From: Halovenus aranensis
GTDB taxonomy: Archaea; Halobacteriota; Halobacteria; Halobacteriales; Haloarculaceae
Length of the DNA: 64,000 bases
NCBI RefSeq assembly: GCF_900100385.1
Contig: NZ_FNFC01000004.1
Location: forward strand, 62,001 to 126,000
Direction of reading: 5' to 3'
This document shows, piece by piece, positions 36,018-42,383 of the stretch; positions within the stretch are counted from its first letter, which is position 1, and every line of letters begins with the position of its first letter. The notes beneath the pieces are model-generated. The model was not told the origin of the DNA and ran no database searches. It was given only the letters and a program-made list of their open reading frames with translations. Both the position numbers and the translations under genes were made by a program.

Positions 36018-37646
36018 TTACTTCGTCCGCCTGATGAACTCGTTGACTGCGTCGTCACTCCCGGCGACAATGAGGGTGTCTTCGGGCATCGCGGTGTATT
36101 CTGGTCCAATGTTCGTCAGTAGCTCGTCGCCACGCTCGACGGCCACCACGGTCGCGCCCGTGATGTCGCCGATGTCGGTCTCCCCGAGGCTACTGCCTTC
36201 GAGTTTCGGGGCAGAGGTGCGGATGATTTCGAACTGCAGGTCTGGGCTCAACACCTCCTCTTCCTCGATGAGTACCGACGAGAGCATCCGGCCGGTAACC
36301 GTAGACAGCGCGAGGACGTACTCCGCGCCGGCCCGATAGAGCTTGGTCGTGTTCTCGACCTCGTTTGCGCGGGCGATGACCTCGGGGTCCGAGGCGAACT
36401 GTTCGAGCGCGACCGTCGAGTACATCGTCGTCGTGTCGTCGTCGAGGGCAAGCACGACGAACTTGGCATCGTCGACGTCGGCCTTCTGGAGCGTTTCCGG
36501 GTCGTTTACGTCACCGACTATGTCGACGCCTTCGGTGTCGGCCGCGTCGACCACCGTGTTCGAGACGCCTGCCTCTTCGAGCTCGGCCACGACGCTCTGT
36601 CCGACGACGCCGTATCCGGCGACGACGACTCGGTCGTCGCCAGAGGCTTTCGGCGCGATTGTTCGGCTGTTGACCTGCTGGAGTTGCTGGTGGCTGCCGG
36701 CGACGAGCAGGATAGAGTTGCCGTCGATTCGACGGCCTGGCTCTGGAATCGGGATGAACTCGCCGTTTGTCCACATGCCGATAACAGTCGCGCCGATTGT
36801 GTCCCGCAGCCCCGATTCGGCGACGGTCTGTCCGGCCAGTTCGCTGCCGGGTTTGACCAGTAGCTCCGACAGCTCGAAGTCGCCGCCAAGTTCGAGTGTT
36901 TCGCGTAGCTCCTGTGTTATCGACAGGGTAGCCTTCCTCGCCAGGCTTCGGCCGAGCGCCTCTCGCGGCCGTATCACCCTGTCTGCTCCTGCGTACCGGT
37001 GATACACTGCGTCTTGTGCGCTCTCGGCGACGCTGATAATATCCAACTCCTCGTGGAGTTCCCTGGCGGTGAGGATAACCGGGACGTTCTCCTCGTCAGA
37101 GACGTCCGCGACAACCGCGCGAGCCTGGCCGACGTTCGCTGCCCGAAAGGTTTCCTCCGACTCGGGGTCGCCCAGAATTGCCTCGATGCCGTCGCTGTTG
37201 AGTTCGAGGACCGTTTCGGGGTCCTTTTCGATGACGACGCGGGGAACGTCTGCCGCTTCGAGTTCCGAGCGGAGCACGTCCTCCCGCGAGTTGTACGAAC
37301 AGATGATGACGTGGTCCGTCAGGTCGGTCGACTCCTGTGGCCTCTCTTCGAGTGCCTGCTGAAACAATGGCACCACGAACAGCGGAAGGGCCAGGAAGAC
37401 GAGCAACACCCCCGTGAGGTTCATCCCAACGACGACGGCGTTCATCGCGTTCGTGTTCCAGTGTTGTGTGTCGCCGCCGAATCCAGCCGTCGTGAAGGCT
37501 TCGACGACGACTTGCAGGGATTCGAATACGGTTATCTCGACGCCCTCGAAGGTCATCATCGACCATCGGTAGATGAAGGTGTAGACGACGACGAGCCCGA
37601 CCACCCCGAGCAACGCGCCCGCGATTCGGCGACGCCAGCCAGTCAT
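36018..37646 (-). CDS. Two-segment potassium channel with double RCK module
   Basis: 542 residues. Two membrane segments (about 8-27 and 70-92) flank a pore with filter TTAGFGGD, a T-x-G-F-G variant of the K+ channel motif. Two RCK-N/RCK-C units follow (N domains begin at DHVIICSYNSREDVL and DDRVVVAGYGVVGQSVV, each with a glycine-rich nucleotide-binding loop), so the channel would be ligand gated through the cytoplasm. It is downstream of trkH and trkA in the same direction, suggesting a potassium-handling unit in which salt-in homeostasis is managed by uptake and leak together. Confidence 0.87.
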   Translation of the reverse strand: MTGWRRRIAGALLGVVGLVVVYTFIYRWSMMTFEGVEITVFESLQVVVEAFTTAGFGGDTQHWNTNAMNAVVVGMNLTGVLLVFLALPLFVVPLFQQALEERPQESTDLTDHVIICSYNSREDVLRSELEAADVPRVVIEKDPETVLELNSDGIEAILGDPESEETFRAANVGQARAVVADVSDEENVPVILTARELHEELDIISVAESAQDAVYHRYAGADRVIRPREALGRSLARKATLSITQELRETLELGGDFELSELLVKPGSELAGQTVAESGLRDTIGATVIGMWTNGEFIPIPEPGRRIDGNSILLVAGSHQQLQQVNSRTIAPKASGDDRVVVAGYGVVGQSVVAELEEAGVSNTVVDAADTEGVDIVGDVNDPETLQKADVDDAKFVVLALDDDTTTMYSTVALEQFASDPEVIARANEVENTTKLYRAGAEYVLALSTVTGRMLSSVLIEEEEVLSPDLQFEIIRTSAPKLEGSSLGETDIGDITGATVVAVERGDELLTNIGPEYTAMPEDTLIVAGSDDAVNEFIRRTK

Positions 37647-37698
37647 ATAGCCGACGTTCGCCGGGTAGAATTAAAGAGGTTACTGGATGGGTGCTGGC

Positions 37699-39300
37699 TC
37701 ACCGGCCTGAATCCCGCAGTCCGGCGACAAACAGCGCCAGCACGGGCACGATTTCGAGCCTGCCGAACCACATCAGTACGGTCATCAGAAGCTTCGAGCT
37801 CTCCGGGAAAAACAGGTAGTTCCCGAACGGCCCCAAATCGCCGAATCCCGGCCCGATGTTGCCGATAGTCGCCAGCGATGCACTCATCGCTTCGAGCACT
37901 GTCAGGTCGACACCAATACGGGCCGAGTCGAGCATAATGAATACTGCGGCAACCCCAAAGAGGAGGATGTACAACATGGTGAACACCATGATACCGCGAA
38001 TCGTGTCCTCGTCGACGACGTTGCCGCCGAGTCGGACCGGCTCGATAACGTCCGGGTGGGCACTGGTGTACAGTTCTCGTCGAATCGCCTTGAAAACCAC
38101 GAGCCATCTGATGACTTTGATACCACCGCCGGTCGACCCGGCCGAGCCGCCGATGAACATCGCGAACAGCAAGACGAGCTGTGCCTCGGTGCCGCCCTCA
38201 GCCCACTGTGCGAAATCCGCCGTCGCGTATCCCGTCGAGTTCAGCAACGACCCAATCTGGAAGGCGGCCTGTCGCAGCGCGTTCTCGGTGACGCCTTCCG
38301 TCACTCCGCCGGGGTCGGTCTTCGGGACGGCACCGCCGAACAGCAAGACAGCGAGGACCGCAAACAGCGCCGCGAGCAGTCCGGCATACGTCCGGAACTC
38401 GGTGTTCTCGAGCATCACCCGAGCTTCGCCACGGAACACGTGCCAGAACAGCGCGAAGTTCACACCAGCCACCACCATGAACGGGATGATAACCCACTGG
38501 ACGAGCGCCGAGAAGGCCGCAATACTGTCGGCCTGTGGCGAGAATCCGCCTGTCGGGAGCGTGGTAAAGGCGTGGGCCACCGCGTTGTAGAGGTTCATAT
38601 TCGGCGCGAGGTCAGCGTCGATGACCGTTCCCGTCAGGTGGAGGCCATAGAGGATAGCGACGAGCAGAACTGTGAATCCAAAGTAGATAATCCACAGCGC
38701 ACGCGCCGTTTCGGCGATTTTCGGCGTGAGCTTCTGGAGGTCCGGACCGGGTGCCTCCGAGCGCATCAGCTCGGCACCGTTGACGGCTACCTCCGGCAAA
38801 ATCGCAATCATCAGCACAATAATCCCCATTCCGCCGAGCCACTGGGTGAGCTGTCGCCACATCATCACCGCGTGGGAGTGTTGTTCTAAGCTAATTTCCC
38901 CCAGAACGGTCGCCCCGGTGGTCGTGAAGCCGCTGGTTGACTCGAACAGAGCGTTCACGAACGACTCGACGGCCGCACCGAGTGAACTAGTCTGCAGGCC
39001 GACGGTCGACTCGGTGCCAAAGCCAGCGAGCAGGTACGGAATCGTCCCCACAATCGGCGCGGCTATCCAGGCCAGTGCGACTAGCAACAGCGCCTCCTGT
39101 GGGCCGAGGTCTGGCTCTGGGTCCAGTCGTTTCAGGCCGAAACCGAGAATAACGACAAGCAGTATCGAGACCACGAACACCCAGATGTCTTCCATATACA
39201 CGACTGCCACAGCCAGCGGCACGAGCATCGTCAGCGCGAGGTAAGTGAGTACTGTCCCCAGCACACCCAGACTCGCCCGCCAGTCAATTCGCCATACCAT
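37699..39300 (-). CDS. trkH: TrkH-type potassium uptake protein
   Basis: 533 residues, about ten or more hydrophobic segments. The four pore-loop signatures of the Trk/Ktr superfamily can be found: STSGFTTTGA, FTTLPTGGFSP, NSTGYATA and GSAGSTGGGIK. It forms the membrane pore for K+ uptake, and depends on a TrkA-type regulator. It sits between the RCK channel gene (52 nt downstream) and the trkA gene (105 nt upstream) on the same strand. Confidence 0.93.
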   Translation of the reverse strand: MVWRIDWRASLGVLGTVLTYLALTMLVPLAVAVVYMEDIWVFVVSILLVVILGFGLKRLDPEPDLGPQEALLLVALAWIAAPIVGTIPYLLAGFGTESTVGLQTSSLGAAVESFVNALFESTSGFTTTGATVLGEISLEQHSHAVMMWRQLTQWLGGMGIIVLMIAILPEVAVNGAELMRSEAPGPDLQKLTPKIAETARALWIIYFGFTVLLVAILYGLHLTGTVIDADLAPNMNLYNAVAHAFTTLPTGGFSPQADSIAAFSALVQWVIIPFMVVAGVNFALFWHVFRGEARVMLENTEFRTYAGLLAALFAVLAVLLFGGAVPKTDPGGVTEGVTENALRQAAFQIGSLLNSTGYATADFAQWAEGGTEAQLVLLFAMFIGGSAGSTGGGIKVIRWLVVFKAIRRELYTSAHPDVIEPVRLGGNVVDEDTIRGIMVFTMLYILLFGVAAVFIMLDSARIGVDLTVLEAMSASLATIGNIGPGFGDLGPFGNYLFFPESSKLLMTVLMWFGRLEIVPVLALFVAGLRDSGR

Positions 39301-39405
39301 CTGAGACTCTGCCGTTACCTGGGTTGCCCATGGGAGTGGCTTGAGTCCTTCGGTTGGAACTGCCAGAGGACGCGAAGCGCATACACCACTCAGAACAGCA
39401 CCCGC

Positions 39406-40743
39406 TCAGGCGAGACAGGTAAGTTCTCCAACGAATTCGGTCTCGACGAAGACGACAATGTGGTCGCCCGCCTGGAGTACCGTATCGCCCCGTGGCGGAA
39501 TGAATGCCCCGTTGCGCGTCAGCGCACCGACTACGAGCGGGAAGTCGGTCTCGGCGTCGAGTTCCTGAATCGATGTGCCGACTAGCTCGCTGTCGTCGTC
39601 GAGTTCGTATTCGAGCACCTCGGCCTGGTCGTGTTCGAGCACAGAGAGGTTCTCAGCGACACTCTCGAAGCTGAAGCGGATGATTTCTTCTGCGGTGACC
39701 TCTCGCGGGTTGACCGCAACGTCGATACCAATTTCCTCGAAGAGGTCGACATAATCCAGATTCTCGACGACGGCGACGACGCGGTTGATACCGAGTCGCT
39801 TTGCCAGGACAGCGACGAGCAAGTTCTGCTCGTCAGGGTCTTTTGCCGCCAGCAGAACGTCGGCTTCGTCGAGGTGTTCCCGGACGAGGAAATCCGTATC
39901 AGTCGCATCGTGTTGCATGACGAGCGTCTCGGGTAACTCCTCGGAGAGGTGGCGGGCACGGGATTCGTCTTCCTCGACGAGCGTCGGGCTGAAGCCGCGT
40001 TCTTCGAGCAGGCGGGCGGTGTGGTATCCGATTTCGCTCCCGCCCGCGATGACTATTTCGTCGGCGCCTCCGGGGGTCGTCTCGGGCGCGATATCGAGCG
40101 CGAACGACTGGACGCTCTCGGGGCTACCGATGACGACGGCCCTGTCGCCAGCCTCGATACGTGTCTCACCGCTGGGGATGAGTATCTCGTCGTCGCGGAA
40201 CAGCCCCGCAAACGTGAGCGATTCGAACCGGTCGGCCTCGGCAATGGTCTGGCCGGTGACCGGACTGCTCTCCGAAATTTCGAACTCTGCCATCTGGACG
40301 AGACCGCCAGCGAACTGGTCGATATCGACTGCTGCGGGCAGGCCGATGACACGAACGATGTCCTCGGCAGTGAGCAAGTCCGAACAGACCAGAAAGTCGA
40401 CACCGAAAGCCGACCGATTGCGCTCCCACGTGTGGAGGTACTCGATGCTTTTTGCCCGTGCAATCGTAAACGGCGTTCCCAGCGTCTTCGCCGTCCCACA
40501 GGCGATGAGATTCGCTCGGTCGTCGTCGGTACAAGCGATAAACAGGTCTGCAGACCCTGTGTCGGCCGTCTCCAGTGTCTCCAGCGAAGTACCGTCGCCC
40601 TGGAGAGTCAGCACGTCGAGCTGGTATGTCAGGTCCTCGGCGCGCTCTGGGTCTTTCTCGACGACGACCACGTCGTGTTCATCAGCCAAGTCTTCGGCGA
40701 TGGCGGTTCCGACTTCACCGGCTCCGATGATGACGACGCGCAT
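39406..40743 (-). CDS. trkA: TrkA-type potassium uptake regulator
   Basis: 445 residues from the ATG at 40743 (MRVVIIGAGEVGTAIAEDLADEHDVVVVE). Two RCK-N Rossmann domains with a glycine-rich loop each (GAGEVG and GGSEIG) alternate with two RCK-C domains, the classic double TrkA. It binds NAD(H) and ATP/ADP and gates TrkH. The longer frame to 40896 adds residues without family support. It is the first gene of the K+ block in transcription order. Confidence 0.92.
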   Translation of the reverse strand: MRVVIIGAGEVGTAIAEDLADEHDVVVVEKDPERAEDLTYQLDVLTLQGDGTSLETLETADTGSADLFIACTDDDRANLIACGTAKTLGTPFTIARAKSIEYLHTWERNRSAFGVDFLVCSDLLTAEDIVRVIGLPAAVDIDQFAGGLVQMAEFEISESSPVTGQTIAEADRFESLTFAGLFRDDEILIPSGETRIEAGDRAVVIGSPESVQSFALDIAPETTPGGADEIVIAGGSEIGYHTARLLEERGFSPTLVEEDESRARHLSEELPETLVMQHDATDTDFLVREHLDEADVLLAAKDPDEQNLLVAVLAKRLGINRVVAVVENLDYVDLFEEIGIDVAVNPREVTAEEIIRFSFESVAENLSVLEHDQAEVLEYELDDDSELVGTSIQELDAETDFPLVVGALTRNGAFIPPRGDTVLQAGDHIVVFVETEFVGELTCLA

Positions 40744-40853
40744 TGCTGGAAGCCTCACGGTCGATGAATTAAGTCGTTTCCCTTTCACACAGGCCCCAGA
40801 CGGGCAAAACCTCTCCCAAAAGCCTTTCATCGTGTGCACGACACTATCCAGCG

Positions 40854-42383
40854 ATGCGCTGGTACGGCGTTTCGATGCGTGGGTTGCTGGTCGCACTCGT
40901 CGGGTTTGGTCTCACCCGGTTTACTGTGACGCTTGCGACGACCGAAACGACACGCGAGTTCCTCCTGACTGGCCTGATACCTCTTGTTCTGGGACTTTCG
41001 CTGACTGCCTTTGGCGTTATTCTGGCCGTCGGTGCGTACGACGAACTGCTCGTTCGGAAGACGCTTCGGTGGTGTCTGCTCGGCACCGGAGCGATGGGTG
41101 CCCTTGTCGTCGTGACGGTGGTCGGCGTCGAGCCGGACGTACTGAGCGACCCGATGGCGGTCCAAGACCAGACCTACCTCTCGAATTTCCTCATCGGCGG
41201 CTCTGTCGGCGGCACGCTCACAGGCGTCTACGCAGCACGGGCGGCCAGACAGCGCGAGACGCTGACACAGCAAACCAACCGACTGGTCGTGCTAAATCGC
41301 CTCCTGCGCGACAAAGTCATCAACTCGGCAATGGCAATCAAAGGCCACGCAGACGTGCTTCAGACCGGCCACAGTGACGACTCTATCGAGGTCGTCGGTC
41401 GACAAGCCGACGACATCGTCCAAGTCATCGAGAACGTGAAATATCTCTCTGAGACTGCTGACACGGACGATATCTCGCTCGGGACAGTCGACCTGAGAGA
41501 GTGTGTCGAGGCCGAACTCGAAGACAGCAAACAGGCAAATCCCAGCGCGGCCTACACGTTCGAGGCCCCGGCGGAGTCGGTCGACGTGCGAGCCAACTCC
41601 CAGCTCGCGGAGGTGTTTCGGCACCTCTTCGAGAACGCTATCGACTACAGCGACGCCGAGACGCCAGAGCTAACCGTCTCAATCGAGCGGTCACGCACGA
41701 CGGTGACAGTCAACGTCAGCGACAACGGCCCGGGGCTCTCCGAGGCCCAGCAGGCACTGCTCGAACACGGTGAAATCGCCGAGTTCGACGACCCGACAAC
41801 CGGGTTTGGACTGAACATCGTTCGCCTCCTCGTCGAAGGGTTCGAGGGGTCCATCGAGACGACGGTGAGTGACGCCGGGACGACGGTGTCGGTACAGCTT
41901 CCTCGGGTCGCCGAGGGAACCGGAACAACGGAGCCATCGACCACGGGAGTGACGCCATCGCACACGGCTCTTGCCGTCCCCGTCGGGCTGGTGGCGGCGG
42001 TGACGATGGGTGTAGCGATGGACCTCGTCGGGTTCGACTTCCAGGCCATCGGCGCGCTCTATGGCATCGAGAACTTCGTGGTCGCGATGCTGACACACGA
42101 GTTCCACAGCGTCGTTTTCGTGTTGTTCTACGCGGCCGTTCTCGTCGTCGTCCCACCGCCGTACGGGGAGAAACTCTCTTCGCGTCTCGGCATCGGAATC
42201 GTGTTCGGTCTCAGCCTCTGGGTGGTTGCCGCGGGGCTCGTGATGCCGCTCTGGCTCCGCCTTGTGGGGATAGCGGCCCCGCTGCCAAACATTCCGCTCT
42301 CCTCGCTGGTCGGTCACGTCGTCTGGGGCGGGACAACTGCGCTCCTCTTTCATGCCGGCGACCGATTCCTCTCAGCCCGGTAG
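40854..42383 (+). CDS. Histidine-kinase-like membrane sensor lacking the phospho-acceptor His
   Basis: 509 residues. An N-terminal membrane block (three or four hydrophobic segments, about residues 8-128) is followed by the dimerisation helix LLRDKVINSAMAIKGHADVL. Aligned to LLRHDLGNDLQVITGFSDAL from the other kinase in this window, Asp153 takes the place of the phosphorylated His. The ATPase part is intact: RHLFENAIDYSD (N-box), SDNGPGLS (G1) and GFGLNIVRLLVEGFEG (G2). Beyond about residue 380 an extra hydrophobic domain of four or five segments is fused, with HEFHSVVFVLFYAA and GHVVWGG. Such an order is unusual for a kinase. It starts 111 nt from trkA, on the other strand. Confidence 0.8.
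   Translation: MRWYGVSMRGLLVALVGFGLTRFTVTLATTETTREFLLTGLIPLVLGLSLTAFGVILAVGAYDELLVRKTLRWCLLGTGAMGALVVVTVVGVEPDVLSDPMAVQDQTYLSNFLIGGSVGGTLTGVYAARAARQRETLTQQTNRLVVLNRLLRDKVINSAMAIKGHADVLQTGHSDDSIEVVGRQADDIVQVIENVKYLSETADTDDISLGTVDLRECVEAELEDSKQANPSAAYTFEAPAESVDVRANSQLAEVFRHLFENAIDYSDAETPELTVSIERSRTTVTVNVSDNGPGLSEAQQALLEHGEIAEFDDPTTGFGLNIVRLLVEGFEGSIETTVSDAGTTVSVQLPRVAEGTGTTEPSTTGVTPSHTALAVPVGLVAAVTMGVAMDLVGFDFQAIGALYGIENFVVAMLTHEFHSVVFVLFYAAVLVVVPPPYGEKLSSRLGIGIVFGLSLWVVAAGLVMPLWLRLVGIAAPLPNIPLSSLVGHVVWGGTTALLFHAGDRFLSAR

Follow-up and report, generated by a model that had tools for sequence, protein, structure and literature searches.

Several described systems bear on what a histidine kinase can do once its kinase reaction is lost (papers are cited by PMC number, each from the part of its text that was available). 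Among the HisKA kinases tested, an acid directly after the phospho-acceptor His serves the kinase reaction, and an Asn or Thr at the +4 position the phosphatase reaction (PMC3510030). In CrdS of M. xanthus, the acid is needed for kinase but not for phosphatase activity, and the Asn of HExxN for phosphatase activity; the H371A variant mostly keeps phosphatase activity (CrdA~P half-life 2.6 min, vs. 0.7 min with the wild type and 53.5 min for CrdA~P alone), and E372A dephosphorylates fully (PMC3510030). A structural study of DesK has the equivalent place positioning the catalytic water (PMC5231405); in PleC, the His is needed for phosphatase activity (quoted in PMC3510030). DivL, with Tyr for His, has neither kinase nor phosphatase activity according to the available part of the study, shows weak binding of an ATP analogue, and is a sensor of DivK~P (PMC4211667); RocA, a pseudokinase with six putative membrane helices, acts through CovS (PMC7028121); and ChrS and HrrS form native heterodimers, with raised signaling via HrrS in a strain carrying a frameshifted ChrS pseudokinase (PMC9491836). 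For archaea, the available part of a census mentions HisKA proteins without HATPase, but no type with Asp for His (PMC5847659). Neither a characterized archaeal histidine pseudokinase nor a paper on the protein family described below was found in the open-licence PMC literature, where a search for YagU was swamped by unrelated words.

The gene considered here lies in a 64,000-nucleotide stretch of the Halovenus aranensis genome (3.29 Mb in 56 contigs), referred to below as the window; its features are collected in Table 1. The closest named relative of the gene is in Halovenus salina (L009, 77% identity). The protein has the layout of its haloarchaeal family, N-terminal helices followed by DHp, ATPase, and C-terminal membrane domain, and belongs to it by full-length homology, by its N-terminal region, by Asn157, and by its HxFHS C-terminal domain. 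Pfam recognizes HATPase_c (residues 249-351, E 2.4e-15) but gives no HisKA match in the window protein; HisKA is matched in 52 of the 95 family members scanned. The N-terminal region scores 13.5 bits against HisKA_4TM (PF16926), below the gathering cut-off of 22.6, and three of 95 members match this family at E ≤ 0.01. The ATP-binding residues, which a preliminary description of the gene had called intact, are all in place: Asn261 in the N-box, Asp290, Gly292, and Gly294 in G1, and Gly317 and Gly319 in G2. The protein thus has the N, G1, and G2 residues of a functional HisKA/HATPase kinase but Asp153 instead of a phospho-acceptor His in the DHp helix, and this kinase fold with a catalytic residue replaced, the replacement being fixed in a clade, places it among histidine pseudokinases of the DivL/RocA kind. 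An AlphaFold2 model built from two sequences has a mean pLDDT of 40.5 and supports no claim made here.

Table 1. Features of the Asp-type gene and its product, with positions in the window.
Feature	Position	Strand	Basis
Asp-type kinase-like membrane protein gene, 509 aa	40854..42383	+	ORF, homologues
N-terminal membrane region, residues 9-130, ~4 hydrophobic segments	40878..41243	+	Hydropathy
DHp-like helical region, residues 138-205	41265..41468	+	Family alignment
Asp153 codon GAC, phospho-acceptor position	41310..41312	+	Family alignment
Lys154, site of the kinase acid	41313..41315	+	E/D in 68/68 His members
Asn157, +4 position, needed for phosphatase activity in HisKA proteins	41322..41324	+	Invariant 96/96; role: available part of PMC3510030
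HATPase region, residues 210-355: N261, D290, G292, G317, G319	41481..41918	+	Pfam match 249-351, alignment
C-terminal membrane domain, residues 372-502, DUF1440/DUF6789-like	41967..42359	+	PF07274 below cut-off; stand-alone relatives
HEFHS = HxFHS motif of the C-terminal domain, residues 415-419	42096..42110	+	Family alignment

An alignment of 96 non-redundant family members shows column 153 to hold His in 68, Asp in 27, and a third residue in none; the remaining member (L112, near a contig end) is unreadable there and was excluded from the trees and from the His/Asp counts, and one further locus that is partial in frame (L221) was left uncounted. Two later members (L213 and L217) also have His. 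The proposed correspondence with the window's other kinase (RHDLGND; row L177) is right by the family alignment. As a background, the other kinases of the same genome have His in all 53 rows with a letter at the acceptor position (61 other HATPase places, 54 with an aligned row and seven without; two gapped rows are uncounted and one kinase is counted twice). Asp153 is constant across 26 Asp rows whose subtree spans ~9.5 substitutions per column, and its codon changes only silently (GAC in 21 and GAT in six of the 27 Asp rows). Invariant columns among the 26 rows number 63 of 509 overall and 19 of 218 in the kinase core; ten of them carry the same residue in less than half of the His rows, and among these 153 alone is never shared. 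The Asp-for-His observation is real and beyond chance. That Asp might be fixed, as the preliminary description asked of the homologues, holds within the 27-member Asp subfamily, inside one taxonomic family, but not family-wide: proteins of the same fold with His, which it had named as speaking against its reading, make up 68 of the 95 readable members.

Of 146 genomes from the taxonomic family to which the window belongs, 41 have near-full-length homologues (43 places, E ≤ 1e-40), as do 80 of the 391 genomes in a class sample (E ≤ 1e-38); in a sample of the phylum, all matches (19 of 392 genomes, E ≤ 1e-32) come from the window's order. Matches were also found in two further taxonomic families (4 of 125 genomes in one, 4 of 28 in the other), with some overlap in the genomes. 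By a tally of listed origins, all 27 Asp members fall within the window's taxonomic family (27 of the 43 there), and Asp is found in none of the 52 readable aligned members from other taxonomic families. Two genomes hold an Asp and a His copy together (G144, with L063 and L048; G110, with L064 and L049). The other 25 of the 27 Asp genomes show one family member only at E ≤ 1e-40 with ten candidates scored per genome, a search in which weaker paralogues could be missed.

Other residues of the transmitter have changed or stayed with Asp153. Residue 154, the site of the kinase acid, is E or D in every His member but R, K, or Q in 22 of the 27 Asp members, the other five keeping E154, while Asn157 is present throughout. 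The five scored ATP-box residues are complete in 21 of 27 Asp members, 16 of 17 of their His sisters, and 23 of 51 other His members. Among the six Asp members with losses, the five rows of Asp clade g10 have no N-box Asn, and L054 has neither N-box Asn nor the first Gly of G2. A converse pattern is seen in 20 of the 68 His members, from several genera (L055-L060, L105-L108, L110-L111, and L113-L120), where N-box Asn and G1 Asp are both lost while the His, the acid, and Asn157 are intact; judging from these residues, usual ATP binding would not be expected of them. The kinase reaction may thus have been given up in two ways, with the DHp Asn and both membrane regions staying. When pairs whose C-terminal domains share an identity of 0.4-0.6 are compared, the His sisters have a HATPase identity of 0.484, Asp clades g1 and g3 one of 0.453, and His members without the ATP residues one of 0.427; the values for the Asp clades taken together and for other His members are 0.390 and 0.358 (four His rows, L056, L058, L059, and L060, are in no group); this suggests little sign of relaxation in the window's clade and more in g10. 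In the genome's own kinases, the residue after the phospho-acceptor His is Asn, not an acid, in 25 of 53 rows, unlike the bacterial HE/HD pattern, and the +4 position is Asn in 52 of 53.

Family-mean hydropathy gives the hydrophobic C-terminal domain (~369-508) four to five segments, which bears out the membrane domain behind the ATPase that had been proposed from the sequence. Nearly invariant columns of the family include H415, F417, H418, S419, W456, P478, and H488. With L054 set aside, all 26 Asp rows have H415 and H418, as do 67 of the 68 His rows, and the motif HxxH[SG] is missing only from L087 among the 96 rows, where it is found in another frame. As assembled, L034 and L087 are each frameshifted within the C-terminal part, with the rest of the domain encoded in another frame. 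The domain does travel with the Asp kinase, as had been asked, but it travels with the His members too; it is a mark of the whole family and not of the Asp form. Alone, it scores 24.4 bits against DUF1440 (PF07274), below the gathering cut-off of 34.7, although 25 of 95 members match at E ≤ 0.01.

A search for the domain in other contexts, which the preliminary description had recommended, was run in eight genomes and gave 15 matches. Of these, nine are family members and five are relatives found elsewhere, with E-values from 7e-9 to 1.4e-6 (L137-L141); the last (L142) is weak and contains stop codons. Four of the five relatives are small separate proteins; in the fifth (L140:841-1938, in G003), the domain sits behind a DUF7344 domain, which we take to be of the winged-helix type. 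DUF6789 is above its cut-off in L139 and L141, whereas no Pfam family reaches its cut-off in L138 or in the L137 protein (read as L209). HxxH[SG] is present in the relatives at L137-L141 (computed for L209, by reading for the others). The arrangement in L140 suggests a membrane-bound one-component regulator with the same sensor domain, and in the family itself the C-terminal domain would be a sensor fused to the transmitter.

With the motif columns left out of the tree building, the Asp members fall into three groups (5, 8, and 13 rows) and the lone L054; the three groups share one unresolved fork with His groups. A single origin of all 27 is rejected (AU test, p 7.8e-7), L054 grouping with His members; for the 26 others a single clade is not rejected (p 0.41), and free trees without a single Asp clade need three changes in all, on both trees. 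The second origin implied by L054 is not firm, as L054 is a single row, its genome is 57% complete, and a one-base change would explain it. Three near relatives without the C-terminal domain (L218, L219, and L220), which align up to the end of the ATPase, have His; since the genome's other kinases have it as well, His is probably ancestral and Asp derived. The Asp form may have arisen as a paralogue, with the two forms then lost differently, which would fit the Asp and His pairs in G144 and G110.

The surroundings of the gene were compared at 81 loci, the window included, with flanks of a few kb and rough gene finding; no gene partner is conserved across the family in these, neighbors being kept within lineages only. 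A Trk potassium-uptake cluster on the minus strand (window positions 36018-40896; two TrkA-type genes and TrkH) adjoins the gene divergently, its trkA starting at ~40743. A link to Trk, with the protein as a potassium sensor, was considered and rejected, because among these loci only the window and L009 have such clusters as neighbors, apart from L119, where they lie at a greater distance. A Pfam scan of ten window proteins recognized no response regulator. In four Asp loci of genus g3 (L065, L122, L123, and L127) what is presumably a uvrB-like gene, judged by reading the L065 sequence, lies upstream on the same strand, ~100 bases away in L065; the two genes are a possible operon in this genus. 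Single cases, by reading, are a receiver-plus-kinase protein upstream of a His member (L070) and another kinase near L055.

Judged by its residues, the window gene is a histidine-kinase family member that is kinase-dead, that is, it probably cannot act as a kinase, and Asp-type proteins are probably phosphatases or binders of a phosphorylated regulator. The preliminary suggestion of a pseudokinase or phosphatase-like regulator would accordingly fit the Asp subfamily, where Asp is fixed, the +1 acid mostly lost (22 of 27), and Asn157 kept, but is too broad for the family. The reading favored here, held tentatively and a little short of probable, is a kinase-dead, signal-controlled phosphatase or phosphate sink for one kinase-regulator pathway. 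In an ancestor within the taxonomic family, the exchange of one base of the codon (CAC to GAC, or CAT to GAT) would have turned the acceptor His into Asp and made autophosphorylation at position 153 impossible. The DHp region would still dock a phosphorylated response regulator, and Asn157 would position the water by which the regulator is dephosphorylated, with Asp153 as a possible supporting acid (DxxxN, in the spacing of the DxxxQ of CheZ and NarX). The membrane domains would sense the signal, nucleotide in the CA domain would set the active conformation, and the net result would be a signal-controlled off-switch or phosphate sink. By analogy with CrdS, the Asp members resemble a naturally occurring kinase-minus, phosphatase-plus form; the available parts of two further papers (PMC7005713, PMC6944256) leave this reading unaltered. 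There are, however, several counterpoints. The +4 Asn is near-universal in the genome's kinases, so its conservation is unspecific for phosphatase activity; the +1 acid is not general in haloarchaeal kinases; E154 is retained in some Asp members; there is neither a conserved gene partner nor a recognized regulator among the ten window proteins scanned; DivL, with its Tyr, does not act as a phosphatase; and PleC needs its His to do so.

The chief alternative is a pseudokinase resembling DivL and RocA, and the sequence data do not discriminate between it and the phosphatase reading. Such a protein would catalyze nothing, but would bind a phosphorylated regulator or pair with a true kinase and so tune that kinase; DivL, RocA, and the ChrS/HrrS heterodimers are precedents. 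We regard this as a serious possibility, if a rather less than probable one: the joint occurrence of Asp and His copies in G144 and G110 and the losses of ATP-box residues in 6 of 27 Asp rows speak for it, but a His-type partner from the family is usually unseen at E ≤ 1e-40, and the whole ATP-box set in the other 21 is beyond what this reading needs. Those same six losses speak against ATP being needed in all Asp members, and so bear on a quite unlikely alternative, anticipated in the preliminary description as a sensor that binds ATP to drive a membrane response. Here, binding or hydrolysis of ATP by the CA domain would move the C-terminal domain, which would itself be the output (a channel, a transporter, or a quinone or metal site). 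Conservation of that domain (HxFHS, W456, P478) in His and Asp members alike shows that it matters whatever the transmitter does, and related domains stand alone and once behind DUF7344. Usual ATP binding can hardly drive it, however, in the 20 of 68 His members that lack N-box Asn and G1 Asp and still have HxxH[SG], and a sensor would account at least equally well for the position behind a DNA-binding-like domain.

Asp153 might itself be a phospho-acceptor, forming an acyl phosphate fed by the protein's own ATPase domain or by another kinase, and it is true that position 153 holds only His or Asp, both possible acceptors. We consider this very improbable, as the open-licence PMC papers searched yielded no precedent and the loss of the neighboring acid (22 of 27 Asp members) speaks against an autokinase geometry having been kept. 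That the gene is decaying, or is an annotation accident without function, is scarcely credible: at least 2 of the 96 homologues do carry a C-terminal frameshift in the assemblies (L034, L087), but the window gene and its closest relative both keep the frame over the full length, the exclusively silent changes at D153 and the conservation contradict decay, and two Asp clades come near the His sisters in HATPase identity, though the Asp clades as a whole are lower.

More widely, the family could be viewed as a separation-of-function series around one HxxH membrane sensor domain: bifunctional proteins with His and ATP binding, dedicated phosphatases with Asp and ATP binding (one base changed, the acid moved to the old His site, DxxxN), and phosphotransfer or phosphatase hubs with His but no ATP binding. 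We think this wider scheme unlikely as it stands. Among the natural homologues, losses of the kinase residue, of the acid next to it, and of ATP-binding residues have occurred separately, while the +4 Asn and both membrane domains stayed, so that a single archaeal family makes it testable what a histidine kinase is good for without kinase activity. In genome annotations, such genes probably pass as ordinary sensor histidine kinases.

In comparison with known systems, the protein resembles haloarchaeal HisKA-type kinases (including HisKA_4TM, PF16926) in its membrane input, its DHp +4 Asn, and its HATPase_c N, G1, and G2 boxes; what sets it apart is the Asp in place of His, the Lys at the site of the kinase acid, and the membrane domain that follows the ATPase. 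With DivL of Caulobacter it shares a kinase fold in which the acceptor is replaced and the CA domain kept, and DivL (4q20) is the third-best PDB match of the family profile, over the core only. To our knowledge, DivL has no such C-terminal membrane domain; it also differs in its PAS input, and in having Tyr where this protein has Asp (PMC4211667). RocA of group A Streptococcus is likewise a multi-helix membrane pseudokinase with DHp and CA parts, but it keeps a dispensable His (H246) and its CA domain lacks residues, whereas in the window protein the CA residues are present and the His is gone (PMC7028121). The DxxxQ of CheZ and HisKA_3 proteins also places an acid and an amide four residues apart, as D153 and N157 are; this is a lead only, since the amide of D153-x-x-x-N157 is Asn and not Gln. 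CheZ has another fold, and NarX and DesK belong to another DHp family. The archaeal HisKA proteins without HATPase are a counterpart of the His-keeping, ATP-losing sister branches, but according to the available part of the census they are mainly from Archaeoglobi and Methanomicrobia (PMC5847659), while here the CA region is present and aligned, with key residues changed. Histidine pseudokinases are thus already known in DivL and RocA, and Asp for His together with a C-terminal membrane domain is a new variant with an unusual architecture.
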